Origin: Armatimonadota bacterium
GTDB lineage: Bacteria; Armatimonadota; UBA5829
Direction of reading: 5' to 3'
Assembly (NCBI GenBank): GCA_023474015.1
Contig: JAMCYN010000078.1
Coordinates: forward strand, 2,604 to 15,131
DNA: 12,528 bases
The notes under the pieces were generated by a model. The model did not search any database and was not told the origin of the DNA. It was given only the letters and a program-made list of their open reading frames with translations. Positions 4,454-11,491 of this stretch are shown piece after piece. The stretch's first letter is position 1. Each line of letters opens with the position of its first letter. Made by a program: the position numbers and the translations under genes.

Positions 4454-4948
4454 CTACTCACCCGAACCCTGTCTGTCGCTACTATCCTCGACCACGCTGT
4501 CGGCCGACTTTTTTCTTCTGTCTCTCTCAACAAGCGCGAACATGAACTCGCCCTCAGCGGCGACCTCGTTGTCCACTTTGGCTATCGCCTTCACCTTGCC
4601 GATGTTGCCCCTGGTCGCAAGCATCTCTACTTCAGTGACTAACGTATCCCCCGGAACAACCGGCTTGCGAAACCTGACCCTGTCCATTCCGCCAAAATAC
4701 GCCAGCTTACCCTGGTTTCCCGTCATGGAAAGCAGCAGCACGCCGGCTACCTGCGCCATAGCCTCGCAAACAAGAACCCCCGGCATCACCGCATGCCCAG
4801 GGAAATGACCCTCAAAGAACTCCTCGTTGATCGTCACATTCTTATAACCACGGGCGCTCTTCTCCGGCACAAGCTCCAGTATTCTGTCCACGAGAAGGAA
4901 CGGATACCTGTGGGGCAGAACGTCCCGTATTTGCTCTACATCAAGCAT
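4454..4948 (-). CDS. fabZ: 3-hydroxyacyl-ACP dehydratase FabZ
   Basis: FabZ dehydrates beta-hydroxyacyl-ACP in cytoplasmic fatty acid elongation. It competes with LpxA and LpxD for the same hydroxyacyl-ACP pool, which explains its place in lipid A operons. The 164-residue hot-dog-fold protein has LPHRYPFLLVDRI (11-23), GHFPGHAVMPGV (47-58) with catalytic His48, and CEAMAQVAG (61-69) with catalytic Glu62. The FGGMDRVRFRKPVVPGD stretch is also typical. The ATG at 4948 is chosen because AAAAGGTGG lies just upstream and the protein then begins at the family's usual N-terminus. The frame is open further upstream, but that part is translated repeat and element DNA. The C-terminus has a short charged extension (RDRRKKSADS...). 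Its TAG abuts the lpxA ATG. An inserted four-helix-bundle element separates it from lpxC. Confidence 0.95.
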   Translation of the reverse strand: MLDVEQIRDVLPHRYPFLLVDRILELVPEKSARGYKNVTINEEFFEGHFPGHAVMPGVLVCEAMAQVAGVLLLSMTGNQGKLAYFGGMDRVRFRKPVVPGDTLVTEVEMLATRGNIGKVKAIAKVDNEVAAEGEFMFALVERDRRKKSADSVVEDSSDRQGSGE

Positions 4949-4965
4949 AAGCCACCTTTTAATGA

Positions 4966-4994
4966 AGAATGATGAATGCAGAATGCAGAATGAA
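4966..4994. repeat. left inverted arm of the element (GCAGAAT heptamers)
   Basis: Two perfect GCAGAAT units (4978-4984, 4985-4991) are flanked by partial GAAT and GAATGAT pieces. Bases 4974-4994 are the exact reverse complement of 5401-5421. The arm lies 18 bases upstream of the fabZ start, just outside its AAAAGGTGG ribosome site, so a stem here could affect fabZ translation. Confidence 0.9.
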
Positions 4995-5028
4995 TCTGGC
5001 ATTCCGCAAGGCTCTTTGCAGCTCCCAA

Positions 5029-5433
5029 CTAGGAAGATGCTATACTCTTCGCGGTCTTGATCGACGAAACCGCGATACTCACCAAAGCATTTGCCTCCGC
5101 CGCGAGTTCGGCAACAGCATCGGTCTTGCACAGCCCACTGCCGATCAACAGCTCGATCCAGTATACACACTCGTCGGCTTCTTCAAGGACTATGGCCATC
5201 TTTGCGGCAAAGTCCGCTTTCGACTTGGCCCTGCATGCCGACCGGTAATTTGCTCCGACAGAAGTGCCACACCTGAGCAATTGCCTGCCCATTACGTCCG
5301 CGACCCGCGTGCGCGGCAGGATATCCGTGAGTTGAATGATACGTAGCGCAAAGGCCTTCGTACGCGCCCTTAAGTCCGTACCTTTCGACGCACGTCTCCC
5401 TTCATTCTGCATTCTGCATTCTGCATTCTGCAT
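5029..5433 (-). CDS. four-helix-bundle protein of the 23S rRNA intervening-sequence (S23) family
   Basis: The 134-residue protein matches the four-helix-bundle family first described from 23S rRNA intervening sequences (PF05635/TIGR02436 type); Avd of diversity-generating retroelements is a relative. Family hallmarks are FALRIIQLTDILPRTR (28-43), MGRQLLRCGTSVGANYRSA (48-66), AKSKADFAAKMAIVLEEADECVYWIELL (69-96), a helical stretch near 104-121 and a terminal SSIKTAK. The molecular function of stand-alone members is unknown; the family is basic and suspected to bind nucleic acid. The first residues ([14 protein letters not shown]) are translated heptamer repeat and differ from the family start, so the ATG at 5412 (residue 8) is an alternative. 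Neither start has a clear ribosome site. The start region overlaps the lpxC end by 64 bases in another frame. The gene is unrelated to lipid A synthesis and looks inserted. Confidence 0.85.
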   Translation of the reverse strand: MQNAECRMQNEGRRASKGTDLRARTKAFALRIIQLTDILPRTRVADVMGRQLLRCGTSVGANYRSACRAKSKADFAAKMAIVLEEADECVYWIELLIGSGLCKTDAVAELAAEANALVSIAVSSIKTAKSIASS

Positions 5434-6314
5434 TCTGCAATTGAATGGCTAACTGCTCTTGCAAATTCAACATTCAGTGCATGTCCCGACTTTACTGCAA
5501 GTATTTCCGCCTGAAGCAGCCCGCCTACGAGCGCGAGATCGCCTATTAGATCTACGACTTTGTGTCTGGCGAGTTCATCCTCGAATCGCAGTTCAGAACT
5601 CATCCGATCCTGCCAGATCACGATCACATTGTCCAGACTGCCGCCTTGCGAAAGCCCATCATTGAGCAGGCCCTCAACCTCTTCATACAACACGAACGTG
5701 CGCGCGGGGGCCAGTTCGGAGCCGAAGTCGCTTTCTTCCAGCACATAGGTCGCCGTCTGGGAGCCTATCAACGGATGATCGTAGCTTAACACGTAGGTAA
5801 TACTCAACCTTGGCGCGGGCACGGCCAGCACGAACGAGCCATTCTGCCGCACGCACACCGGCTCCGTCAGGACTATCGGTTTGCGCGTCGAAGCCAAATC
5901 GATCAGTCCGACAGCGTCAATGGCTTCGACATAAGGCAGGGCGCTGCCGTCCAACGCGGGGAGTTCCGGCCCGATGACCTCGACTACCGCATTATCTACC
6001 CCCGAGCCCCTCAAGGCGGCCATCAGGTGTTCTATCGTACGAATGCGCGTGCCGTTGAATCCGATGCTTGTTCCACGCGACGTGTCCACCACGTTCGACG
6101 CTAGCCCGCGTATAATGTGAGTCCCATCGCTAAAAACGACTCCGGTGTTCTCAGGCGCGGGCCTGATGACCACTGAGGTATCACCACCGCTGTGGAGGCC
6201 GGTGCCGGAAAGCCTCACGCTTCCAGCCAGCGTCTTCTGCAGGCACAAGGCATCCAGAGGCTCGGACTCGTTTTCGAGGAGCACCCTCGCATTAGTATTA
6301 AACACAGCCGCCAT
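5370..6314 (-). CDS. lpxC: UDP-3-O-acyl-N-acetylglucosamine deacetylase LpxC
   Basis: LpxC is the zinc amidase that commits UDP-GlcNAc to lipid A synthesis in the cytoplasm. From the ATG at 6314 it is 314 residues (E. coli 305). Conserved elements are LSGTGLHSG (35-43), [11 protein letters not shown] (93-103) with Glu95 and zinc-ligand His96, ELPALDGSA (117-125), HKVVDLIGD (251-259) with zinc ligands His251 and Asp255, and KSGHALN (275-281) with catalytic His278. The start is 17 bases inside the lpxD end, with GGTG upstream. The open frame continues further upstream, but only into lpxD sequence. The C-terminus is odd: after about residue 293 the protein is translated heptamer repeat and element DNA ([12 protein letters not shown], then [10 protein letters not shown]), so the original last residues were probably replaced by the insertion. 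The catalytic core is complete, so the enzyme should work. Confidence 0.95.
5404..5438. repeat. five perfect tandem heptamers ATTCTGC
   Basis: Five identical 7-bp units read ATTCTGC on the plus strand (GCAGAAT on the coding strand). On the coding strand each unit junction creates an ATG every 7 bases, cycling through all three frames. The array encodes the [12 protein letters not shown] tail of LpxC and, in another frame, the first residues of the four-helix-bundle protein. Confidence 0.97.
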
Positions 6315-7362
6315 CGTCGATTTCACCACTACCCTGAAGCTTCTTGACCTCTCGCTCCAAGGCTCGCAAACGTTCCAAGATATCGGGTAAATGCAGCCTC
6401 GCGGCCTCCACCCTCTTCTCCGACCGATGATCTCTGGCCGGAAATCCCGAGACCGTTGCACCCTTCCCCACGTTTCCAATCACGCCCGCCCTGGCAGCTA
6501 TCACGGCTCCGTCCTCTATTCGGACGTGGTCCTTGATGCCCGTCTGGGCAGCCAGAGTGACTCCATTGCCTATCTCAACGCTTCCCGCCACACCGCTCAA
6601 AGCGACGACCACGCAGTTTGAACCAAGTTTCACGTTGTGCGCTATATGCACCAGGTTATCGATCTTGGTTCCGATGCCGATAACGGTCGCGCCGGTCTTG
6701 GCGCGGTCAATGGTCGAGTTCGCGCCGATCTCGACGTCATCCCCGATTTCGACAATCCCCGCGTGGGGAAACTTCATCAGCCCGTTCGCCGAAGGCTTGT
6801 AGCCGAAACCGTCAGCGCCTATCACAGCGCCCGCGTGCAATATCACACGCTTTCCGATCCGGCATTTCGGGTAGATGGTCACGCCGGGGTAAATCTTAGT
6901 CCCCTCGCCGATTGTGACCGACTCACCCACATACACATTTGGAAACGCAACGCAGCCGTCTCCCAGACTCGCGCCGCGTCCGATGAAGCAATTCGCTCCA
7001 ATCGCGACGTTCTCGCCCAGGCGTACACCCTCTTCGACAACCGCTCCAACACCGATTCCGACCGCCGGAACCAGCTCCTCACCGCGAAAATAATCCAACA
7101 CCCTGGCGAAAGCCTCAGCGGGTCTAGCAACCTTTATGACACACTTCCCATCGCAAGGCCGCGCCACGTCAACGCCGCAGATAATACAGGAAGCCTTCGA
7201 TTCCAAAGCCTTTCGGAAGAACTTCGCGTCCTCCGCCAAAACCACATCACCTGCTTCGGCGTCATCAACATTCGCCACGCCATCAACCGCGAGACCCGAA
7301 TTTCCCTCAATATCGCCGTCGATAAGTGAGGCTATGCGCGCGGCGGTAGTATTTGCAGACAT
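6298..7362 (-). CDS. lpxD: UDP-3-O-acylglucosamine N-acyltransferase LpxD
   Basis: LpxD adds the second hydroxyacyl chain to UDP-3-O-acyl-glucosamine, as a cytoplasmic trimer. The 354 residues (E. coli 341) comprise an N-terminal uridine-binding domain (about 1-98), a long left-handed beta-helix of hexapeptide repeats (about 100-310), and a C-terminal helix (about 320-345, [18 protein letters not shown]). The stretch [11 protein letters not shown] holds His239 and His242; the latter aligns with catalytic E. coli His239. ADGFGY (183-188) is also typical. The ATG at 7362 is chosen over the TTG one codon earlier, because AAAGGG lies at good spacing. It overlaps the previous gene's stop by one base (TGATG), implying translational coupling, and its 3' end overlaps lpxC by 17 bases. 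Confidence 0.96.
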
Positions 7363-9554: not shown

Positions 9555-11435
9555 TTAGAAAGCCTGGCCCATACTGAAGTGTGTGCGCGCGCCCTCTTTG
9601 CCGACGCCGTAGTCCAACCTCAAGTGTCCAATCGGGGTCGTGACTCTGATCCCGACGCCGGTGCCGAAACTGCCCTGGAAGTTCTGGTGCTGGGGCAGTT
9701 GCGCGATGTTATAGGTGGGATCGCCGCCCCATGCGTCACCATAATCCACAAATATGACACCCGATATCGATTGAGCAATCGGTTTTCTCAGCTCAATGCT
9801 TGTAAGGAGCATTCTGTCGCCCCAAAATCGGTCCTCCCGGTATCCTCTAAGGCTTTCACTGCCGCCCACGAAGAACTGTTCGAAATATGGAATCTTCCCG
9901 GTAGCGTAGCCGGTCCTCATTCGGATGGCTATGGTAGTCCGCTTGTCTTGCGGGGTTTTCTTGGCTCCTTGACGACTGAAGTAGCGTCGTAAGTCCACCG
10001 AAGCTTTTTGGAAGCCACCCTTGAATGGGAACGGTTCGGCGGTGGACACTGGTGTTGAAACTCCATTGACTATCTGGGTAGTCGTCACAGTATTGAATCT
10101 GGTACCATTGACCGTGCCGAATTCCAGCGAGATACCTTCGTATCCGCCCGCGGCGGGATCGATATCTATGTCACGAGTGTTGTGAACCATTCGAAGCGAG
10201 CCCCCCGCGACGTTGCCTTTCTGGATAATGTTGACAAGGTCGGATGGATTAGTGGTACCTGAGTTGAACAGCAAGTTCGGGTCGGCATCGACGTTCTCGA
10301 ACCGTCCGCCCACATATACCCTCGTCTTATCGGTCAACGGCCGGCTGACGGTGACATCCCCACCCTTGTGGCGCTCGTTATAGAATTGGCCGTTCTGGAA
10401 TGCACCGCCGCCGAAGACGCCCGAAGAGAATCTGTATAGCAGCTTATCGAATGCCGTAACGTTGAGTGACGTGTGCTGCTTGTCGATCCAGGGCTCGAAG
10501 AACCCGAGCTCATAACTTGCGCTGCCGCCGGTAGCCTGGGTGGTACCCTGCTCCCACAGCAGGTTCAGGTTCTGAGCCTTTCCCTTAAAGTTGGATTCCT
10601 GCAGCCTGGCCTGACCGACCAGCCTCTGCCTTGAACTGTATCCCAGACCAACCGACACCTGCCCGGTCTTCTTCTCGACCACCGGAATCGTGATTTTCAC
10701 GAGACCGACCTCGGTACCCGGATTGATCTGGTAGGGCTTGATGTCCTCAAGGATATCCAGGTTGTAGATTCGGCGGATGTCCTCGTTGAGTGTGTCCAAG
10801 TTGAGGATCTTGCCGGGCCCGGTCTTCATTTCGCGCAGAAAAACATAGGTCTTGGTTTTCTTGTTGCCGGTGATTTCCACGCTTTCTACCCTGTGCACGA
10901 GTATTGGAACCGTCAACACCCCGGTTTGTGGATCGACGCCTATCTCCTCGGTAACGTAGGCGATATACTTCTTGTCCTTGTAGAGCTCCTGGATCGCCTC
11001 GATATCCTGGTTGAGGCTGGTGGTGTTGAGAACTTGGCCGGGTTTGGTCTTCATCACTGCCCTGACCTGTTCGGCCTTCAAAGGCTCGCTGCCAACGACC
11101 TTGATATCGGTGATCTTCGGATTCTCGGTAACCTCGTAGTTGATCTTCACGCCTTCAGCCGTCTGGTCCTTGTGAACCGTGACGGCGCTAAAGTAGCCGA
11201 GCGACATAATCGAAGCCTTATCTTTGTCCGCGGCCTGGTCCGTGTATTCGTCACCCGGCTTGAGGGTGATGGCATTCTGAATAGTGTCTGTGTTGATATT
11301 CTTGTTTCCGGAAATCGCTACCTCCGTCACCCTTGCGGTCTCCTGCGCCGACAAAACAGTTGGAATGATAAGAATCAGTCCCGCCAGAAGCGTCAGCAGA
11401 ACCAACCCACCTGTTTTCGATATCCGATATGCCAT
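9555..11435 (-). CDS. bamA: outer-membrane protein assembly factor BamA (three POTRA domains)
   Basis: BamA is the Omp85 barrel that folds and inserts outer-membrane proteins. The 626-residue precursor has a signal peptide (1-30, hydrophobic core 10-28, LSA at the cut). Three POTRA domains follow, about 34-106, 107-182 (IKVVGSEPLKAEQV...) and 183-256 (VESVEITGNKKTKTYVFLRE), then a 16-strand-type barrel (257-626). The loop-6 hallmark is GGSESLRGY (524-532), and the protein ends in Phe, the usual terminal residue for barrels. E. coli BamA has five POTRAs and 810 residues, so this is a short form like those of many non-proteobacterial diderms. The ATG at 11435 follows AGGAGG with 11 bases spacing. 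It has its own promoter upstream and a terminator downstream. TamA is an alternative name for three-POTRA proteins, but the skp/lpx context favours BamA. Confidence 0.93.
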   Translation of the reverse strand: MAYRISKTGGLVLLTLLAGLILIIPTVLSAQETARVTEVAISGNKNINTDTIQNAITLKPGDEYTDQAADKDKASIMSLGYFSAVTVHKDQTAEGVKINYEVTENPKITDIKVVGSEPLKAEQVRAVMKTKPGQVLNTTSLNQDIEAIQELYKDKKYIAYVTEEIGVDPQTGVLTVPILVHRVESVEITGNKKTKTYVFLREMKTGPGKILNLDTLNEDIRRIYNLDILEDIKPYQINPGTEVGLVKITIPVVEKKTGQVSVGLGYSSRQRLVGQARLQESNFKGKAQNLNLLWEQGTTQATGGSASYELGFFEPWIDKQHTSLNVTAFDKLLYRFSSGVFGGGAFQNGQFYNERHKGGDVTVSRPLTDKTRVYVGGRFENVDADPNLLFNSGTTNPSDLVNIIQKGNVAGGSLRMVHNTRDIDIDPAAGGYEGISLEFGTVNGTRFNTVTTTQIVNGVSTPVSTAEPFPFKGGFQKASVDLRRYFSRQGAKKTPQDKRTTIAIRMRTGYATGKIPYFEQFFVGGSESLRGYREDRFWGDRMLLTSIELRKPIAQSISGVIFVDYGDAWGGDPTYNIAQLPQHQNFQGSFGTGVGIRVTTPIGHLRLDYGVGKEGARTHFSMGQAF

Positions 11436-11470
11436 CTGCGAAGATTCCTCCTGAATCAGAAGTTGGAAAT

Positions 11471-11491
11471 TAGAAGTTAGAGGTTAGAGAC
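11471..11491. repeat. three degenerate heptamers TAGARGT in the bamA leader
   Basis: TAGAAGT, TAGAGGT and TAGAGAC follow each other at 7-base spacing (plus-strand reading), inside the predicted untranslated leader of bamA and 36 bases before its start. An imperfect extra unit may precede it (AGAAGTTGGAAAT). It differs in sequence from the heptamers at the four-helix element but shares the 7-bp period. Confidence 0.6.

Follow-up and report, generated by a model that had tools for sequence, protein, structure and literature searches.

A cassette class, in which a gene of the 23S rRNA intervening-sequence protein (IVP) family is enclosed between two inverted arrays of short tandem repeats, was found across several phyla. 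The window, which is the whole stretch of 12,528 nucleotides of DNA analysed here, carries one such cassette of about 480 bp (inverted array, IVP/S23-type gene, inverted array) between lpxC and fabZ. Matching inverted flanks were found for 96 of the 128 IVP genes compared and for none of the 113 distal controls. The invariant property across the copies is the period of the arrays together with the match of one arm to the other, and not the sequence of the repeat unit. Mobility of the cassette is likely, and the explanation towards which we lean is a compact DNA cassette, whose protein would recognize the arrays, whose arms would copy each other and which would spread as DNA. The cassette joins two puzzles, namely a common protein family outside rRNA without an assigned function and the unexplained heptamer arrays of intergenic regions.

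Structure of the cassette in the window

The original prediction had placed an IVP-family gene between lpxC and fabZ, and this was confirmed by the PF05635 and TIGR02436 models as well as by the neighbouring genes (Table 1). The ORF encodes 134 amino acids and matches PF05635 with 59.2 bits (cut-off 33.8) over residues 24-118 and TIGR02436 with 80.3 bits (cut-off 24). In a sequence comparison the protein matched a single solved chain, 2rld (E 5e-18). The upstream lpxC, the IVP gene and the downstream fabZ all run in the same direction. The longest version of the IVP frame has its ATG within the right array; the exact start codon is uncertain. The lpxC frame continues through this right (5') array up to a stop at 5370-5372, inside the cassette. 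The ATG of fabZ is located 12 nt past the 3' arm with AAAAGGTGG between them.

Table 1. Features of the lpxC-fabZ region and their positions in the window.
Feature	Position	Strand	Basis or remark
23S-IVP / S23-type four-helix-bundle gene	5029..5433	minus	PF05635 and TIGR02436 matches, ORF
Upstream (5') arm: five ATTCTGC + TTC (coding strand: GCAGAAT)	5401..5438	minus	
Downstream (3') arm: GAAGAAT, GATGAAT, GCAGAAT, GCAGAAT on the plus strand, inverted with respect to the 5' arm	4961..4994	minus	
lpxC (context)	5370..6314	minus	start is the Met chosen in the frame of ORF 5370-6479
fabZ (context)	4454..4948	minus	FabZ-like; match in 15/15 family genomes

The inverted GCAGAAT arrays that had been described for this locus were recovered with one correction. 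All five units of the right array (5404-5438) are exact, but the left array (4964-4991) is only half exact, with two variants beside its two GCAGAAT units. The perfect match of 21 nt is present as the longest perfect inverted repeat of the arms (4974-4994 with 5401-5421), and the extended arms (4961-4994 and 5401-5434) match by 91% over 34 nt. Only two 12-mer inverted pairs were found elsewhere in the whole window. The suggestion that the arms could close an RNA stem around the gene agrees with the predicted RNA fold of the cassette strand, which is a single structure (-197.7 kcal/mol, z -4.5) with the paired arms at its base. Between the arms, the IVP gene is the only ORF of note on the coding strand; a second ORF of transposase size is absent inside the cassette, in line with the earlier statement that no transposase is present. 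A lone period-7 array (GAAATTAGAAGTTAGAGGTTAGAG) was also seen at 11466-11489 of the window, just 5' of a BamA-like ORF (9555-11435, minus strand), with no inverted partner in its vicinity.

The lpxC-fabZ junction in related genomes

The LpxC search of the genome collection gave seven loci, three of which were close (69-73% identity), one in an Armatimonadetes MAG (L001) and two in further bacterial MAGs. At the loci L002 and L003 fabZ follows directly after lpxC and no cassette is present. FabZ was found in all 15 genomes of the family-level relatives of the window, and the junction is without an insert in 14 of the 15, which are the 14 that could be read, and this upholds the claim of an insertion at an operon junction. 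In 13 of these genomes the lpxC frame ends from 13 nt inside fabZ to 119 nt before it, so that there is no room for a cassette; in the fourteenth (L184) about 60 nt separate the end of the lpxC match from fabZ. The G001 junction coincides with a contig end, where another short repeat is located. As far as these relatives show, the IVP gene of the window is an insertion particular to its own lineage. No target-site duplication was found; the relatives are too distant for the exact insertion boundaries to be placed, and the near-identical sites compared below are all filled. A role of the IVP gene in lipid A synthesis was considered and dropped, as the lpxC-fabZ junctions of the relatives are empty.

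The repeat at the G001 junction is a short palindrome (TGTCATCCTGAAC...GGAATGACA), present behind lpxC and before fabZ on two contigs (L001, L175), and the junction may be one that attracts repeats.

Census of bracketed IVP genes

The PF05635 search of 61 genomes of the G001 phylum (Armatimonadota-like) gave matches in 35 genomes and 92 places over the cut-off, with up to 13 matches in a single genome (G052) at unrelated sites. Gene by gene, the upstream flank was aligned to the reverse complement of the downstream flank. The threshold of 14.5 was the 99th percentile of 5550 mismatched pairs, and sequence taken some 530 to 800 bases off at each locus served as distal control. The main set comprised 78 loci, namely the window locus, two loci of G003 and 75 of the 92 places over the cut-off, and three of the 78 were dropped for too little flank. 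In this set 60 of 75 genes had matching inverted flanks (distal controls 0/65). Matching inverted flanks were likewise found in 16 of 27 genes of Planctomycetota (distal controls 0/23), these being the over-cut-off loci among 30 taken from a longer list, in 5 of ten further loci of the G001 family (0/9) and in 15 of 16 plasmid genes (0/16), the plasmid set being 16 of 25 plasmid records. The plasmid hosts belong to Cyanobacteriota, Chloroflexota, Bacteroidota, Spirochaetota and Bacillota, and the single Bacteroidota case (L162) is weak and doubtful. Against their own mismatched pairs only 2 of the 16 plasmid genes pass the 99th percentile (35). This cross-pair control is weak because the cyanobacterial units resemble each other, and therefore the distal-flank control was used for the plasmids.

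The 32 genes of the 128 in which matching flanks are absent include fragments, weak family matches and also clear members. L153 (G040) and L154 (G026), in two genomes of the family, are a 93% identical IVP pair without arrays and under strong purifying selection (dN/dS 0.04), and an IVP gene can therefore exist without them. Two genomes of Planctomycetota, G077 and G089, have 25 and 21 low-scoring PF05635 matches, which may belong to a different subfamily; one locus from each of them (L208 and L206, respectively) had no matching arrays.

A second design was found at genes of the GxxExxY family (PDDEXK_3, PF13366) in the same 61 genomes. All 30 loci (L089-L118) were taken and 29 were usable; 25 of these reach 14.5 (distal controls 0/25) and 18 pass their own stricter 99th percentile (20.0). 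Their arrays are of another kind, for example ACCACAGAGACACAGAGGCACAGAG or AACCGCCGATGAACGCAGAT, with spacings of about 8 to 10 as judged by eye, and both neighbours lie in sense direction in 19 of 23 cases. The counts of IVP and GxxExxY genes over the 61 genomes are correlated (Spearman 0.70), 21 genomes having both genes, 14 only IVP, 3 only GxxExxY and 23 neither.

Period, unit sequence and turnover of the arrays

The heptamer unit mostly differs from copy to copy, also within one genome. GGGAACA, GGAAAGC, TGAGTTT, AGTCGAA, GATTTAC, TAATTCG, CCAGTGA and many more units were seen, and close cassette copies can have a common unit. Bracketed copies elsewhere, which the original prediction had anticipated, are many and of the same family, but GCAGAAT is not their common motif and most of them carry their own heptamer. 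Because of this, the proposed search for GCAGAAT-like triple units gave no exact match in six relatives. The relatives have no insert at the junction where it could be read and bracketed copies do exist elsewhere, so neither of the two outcomes named beforehand as contrary to that prediction occurred.

Over 94 arm pairs, L158 and L159 being left out as near-duplicates of L157, the best period was 7 in 74, 8 in 16 and another in 4. With a strict array criterion on at least one side, period 7 was found in 35 of 97 genes and period 8 in 13 of 97, other periods (the multiples 14 and 16 excepted) being found in at most 5 genes; the distal flanks gave 0 or 1. Moreover, the period follows the protein tree. 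On a tree of 88 of the 94 proteins, namely those of at least 75 aa with period 7 or 8, 10 changes of period were counted as against 15.0 when shuffled, and none of 500 shuffles was as low, a clustering that is helped by near-copies on a tree with many poorly resolved forks. Five related proteins all have period 8. Period 7 is found throughout a well-supported set of 32 that includes the window protein and copies of several phyla. By path on the tree, the closest neighbours of the window protein are a Gloeocapsa plasmid copy (L156) and a G010 copy (L085), followed by other plasmid copies from cyanobacteria and Chloroflexota, and this placement may be taken as a hint of transfer between phyla.

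At one site common to G003 and G001 (L013/L015), which by reading of the sequence lies between aminotransferase-like and nucleotidyltransferase-like genes, the two arms of either genome match one another (22 and 26), and arms of different genomes do not (6.0 to 6.5). At another site, located before a gene read from the sequence as argG-like, the arms of L025 differ likewise from those of L012 and L139, which still resemble each other. In three Planktothrix plasmids the ORF is almost constant, whereas between the arrays there are steps of 7 and 21 bases and many changes of the units. Three IVP protein pairs had dN/dS values of 0.09, 0.04 and 0.11, and in these measurable pairs purifying selection acts on the protein; three more pairs were saturated. 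The ORF is therefore maintained while the arrays turn over.

Copied units and arrays without a gene

The clearest sign of a copied unit is the pair L192/L216 in G087, with period-8 arrays, in which 5' array, gene and 3' array together are 88% identical and the flanks are unrelated; it is the only whole-unit copy pair of this kind that was found. Arrays without a gene are common, often as hairpins with short loops, and these hairpins sit between many kinds of genes. Period-7 arrays numbered 23 (G010), 13 (G008) and 6 (G040) per 400 kb, one of the six in G040 being part of an IVP cassette. G088 had 9 in 180 kb and G123 had 10 in 220 kb, and all five of these genomes have an IVP gene. No period-7 array was found in 800 kb sampled from five genomes without the IVP gene, all of one phylum. 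With genomes as units, this amounts to 5/5 with the gene against 0/5 without it, the negatives coming from that single phylum.

The stray arrays of three genomes were also compared with the resident cassettes, and 8 clusters matched where 2.7 were expected, a count reached in 34 of 2000 draws. This likeness is carried by G008; neither G010 (801 of 2000 draws) nor G040 (199 of 2000) reaches significance when taken alone, and other scorings of G010 gave 377 of 2000 draws by summed score and 787 by count. An empty site for the Planktothrix locus was sought in plasmids, and the three near-identical records obtained were all filled.

As to a possible partner enzyme, Y1_Tnp had no match in G007, G041, G056, G061, G064 and G066, all MAGs with over-cut-off IVP genes and possibly incomplete. 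RVT_1 had no match in G001, G023, G026, G040 and G061, each with several copies and each a possibly incomplete MAG. G061 has six IVP matches and neither of the two enzymes. Y1_Tnp and RVT_1 were rejected as obligate partners, each of them being missing from some genomes with copies.

Position of the cassettes in operons

Of 81 array-positive elements, 77 could be counted for the direction of their neighbours, the rest being left out because the contig was short, the neighbour frame was unclear or the flank was repeated. Both neighbours are in sense in 53 elements, both against in 3 and mixed in 21; the neighbour genes in these orientation and distance counts are longest open frames and not gene calls. 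For elements in sense, the median distance between the upstream stop codon and the beginning of the 5' arm is 2 nt, and the stop falls before the arm in 23, inside it in 19 and beyond it in 9 of 51 cases. The downstream ATG is within 40 nt of the 3' arm in 39 of 48 sense cases, with a median of 17.5. The cassette therefore typically fills the gap from a stop codon to the next start. The idea that the arrays exist for coding was dropped, as 23 of the 51 upstream stops precede the 5' arm. For the sense bias, selection of copies that the operon promoter can express would be explanation enough, and an RNA-based mechanism could also account for it.

Possible mechanism and alternative explanations

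From the features given above we infer recognition of the arrays by the IVP protein and copying between the arms. Binding of the protein to the arrays would account for a fixed spacing with a free sequence. A solved Xanthomonas relative of the protein is reported to be an oligomer of four-helix bundles. The arms might be kept alike if one of them templates the other on fold-back or repair, and whole units would be gained or lost by slippage. Cassettes as well as gene-less array hairpins may spread as DNA by means of a host enzyme or an enzyme acting in trans. Sense insertions at operon junctions would then survive, since no gene would be broken and the operon promoter would express the ORF. 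None of the elements compared below has terminal repeats of this sort, with arms that match each other and hold their period but are otherwise free to change. The DNA cassette model predicts binding by spacing, copying from arm to arm and loss of the arrays upon loss of the gene.

A wider proposal is put forward tentatively, and we would not yet rely on it. The cassettes may form a transposase-free mobile class in which the IVP/S23-type protein and its inverted arrays are the whole system. Here the protein would measure spacing rather than sequence, and the arms could have nearly any sequence of period 7 (or 8) and would be rewritten from each other in each lineage. The gene-less hairpins and the intergenic heptamers would be by-products, and the nuclease-like GxxExxY genes with their arrays of about 8 to 10 would be a parallel system.

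The cassette might on the other hand be immobile, the IVP protein acting as a regulator or nucleic-acid chaperone and the arrays as its own operator in mRNA or DNA, gained once per operon and inherited thereafter. The purifying selection on the protein, the sites common to family genomes (L013/L015/L069 and L012/L025/L139) and the sense position adjoining gene starts are consistent with such a role, and paired heptamer arrays are read as regulator sites in Geobacter in the available text of PMC2700814. We nevertheless consider it unlikely, since a unit was copied in G087, the window holds an insertion, G052 has matches at unrelated sites and stray arrays occur elsewhere; a complete sequence change at one site is moreover hardly expected of an operator.

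The original prediction had also offered an RNA element processed out of the transcript, with the arms pairing in the mRNA, RNase III cutting the stem and spread perhaps taking place through RNA. The strong predicted fold closed by the arms and the sense bias point in this direction. According to the available text of PMC4990558, moreover, RNase III cleaves rRNA intervening sequences that encode a member of this protein family. If pairing in the transcript were selected, G.U mismatches between the arms should exceed A.C mismatches. In the IVP arms of 65 elements there were 105 G.U and 86 A.C mismatches (p 0.19), with 21 elements leaning one way and 22 the other, and in the GxxExxY arms of 25 elements the counts were 56 and 58. 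G.U is thus not clearly above A.C, and these counts give no support to RNA cutting, which we judge quite unlikely. The window and six loci had no Rfam match at gathering scores, the five possibly incomplete MAGs named above gave no reverse transcriptase match, and the stray hairpins without an ORF, sitting between many gene kinds, also speak against it.

It is very improbable that the arrays came first, as heptamer microsatellites made by slippage and quasi-palindrome correction at operon junctions beside which IVP genes land or survive, for although arrays do change by whole units and heptamers are over-represented in some bacteria (available text of PMC4692102), the link of array and gene is far above the controls, the arrays at the GxxExxY genes in these genomes are of a different design, array period goes with the protein and the sampled genomes without an IVP gene have no period-7 arrays.

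Comparison with known systems

The 23S rRNA intervening sequences (S23p ORF) of Coxiella, Leptospira and others resemble the cassettes in the protein family (PF05635) and in total length, and likewise have an ORF in the loop, complementary ends and no transposase, as described in the available text of PMC4990558. The likeness drawn by the original prediction holds for the architecture and the protein family, but not for the location or the kind of ends. The rRNA intervening sequences sit in rRNA, whereas the present cassettes, with their IVP ORF and stem-closing ends, sit in protein operons such as lpxC-fabZ in the window and end in tandem arrays with a period of 7 or 8, whose sequence varies between copies. 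Moreover, the Coxiella intervening-sequence ORF is reported to decay (same text of PMC4990558), whereas the cassette protein is under purifying selection.

Foldback elements of eukaryotes have inverted ends made of tandem subrepeats. Inverted ends of short tandem repeats are also present in the cassettes, a likeness by analogy. Both foldback elements and bacterial MITEs share inverted ends with the cassettes, but the cassette ends differ in each copy and keep only the period, also within one genome, whereas MITEs have the same terminal sequence in all copies. Insertion sequences and DNA transposons encode a transposase, which the window cassette does not. REP/RAYT systems have a Y1 transposase in the genome, and none was matched in the six IVP-bearing genomes listed above. 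The accessory protein Avd of diversity-generating retroelements has a homologous four-helix-bundle fold (available text of PMC10053308). In contrast to those retroelements, the cassettes have no obligatory reverse transcriptase partner, as seen in the five genomes lacking RVT_1 matches, and have arrays instead of template and variable repeats.

Intergenic heptamer arrays have been described with the units TAACTGA in Beggiatoaceae (PMC4679880) and GGGAATC in Xanthomonas and GGGGA(T/C)T in Nostoc (PMC4692102), and paired heptamer sites in Geobacter (PMC2700814). In the available parts of these papers the arrays have period 7, are intergenic and occur partly as inverted pairs, as in the cassettes; there they are described as regulatory or quadruplex-forming and are not linked to an IVP gene. 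No published link between heptamer arrays and the IVP gene was found in a search of a literature library with few subscription papers and preprints, and an earlier description may exist.

Cassettes in defence loci

Eighteen IVP genes have been reported in CRISPR-cas loci, and flanking arrays are unmentioned in the available text of that report (PMC3936711). Such genes may be cassette insertions and not parts of the defence systems. Our results suggest that IVP genes in CRISPR, DISARM and restriction operons could be passengers in the same manner. Among the plasmid cassettes, 10 of 16 directly adjoin a defence-type gene by annotation or by reading, these neighbours being DrmD, DUF1156 with Swt1-HEPN, Cas1, Cas2, Csx2, a helicase with DNA methylase, HsdS and HsdR. 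Within this plasmid set (L156-L171), the cassette is located between drmD and a methylase in the three Planktothrix plasmids, and in Anabaena cylindrica it lies between cas2 and cas1.
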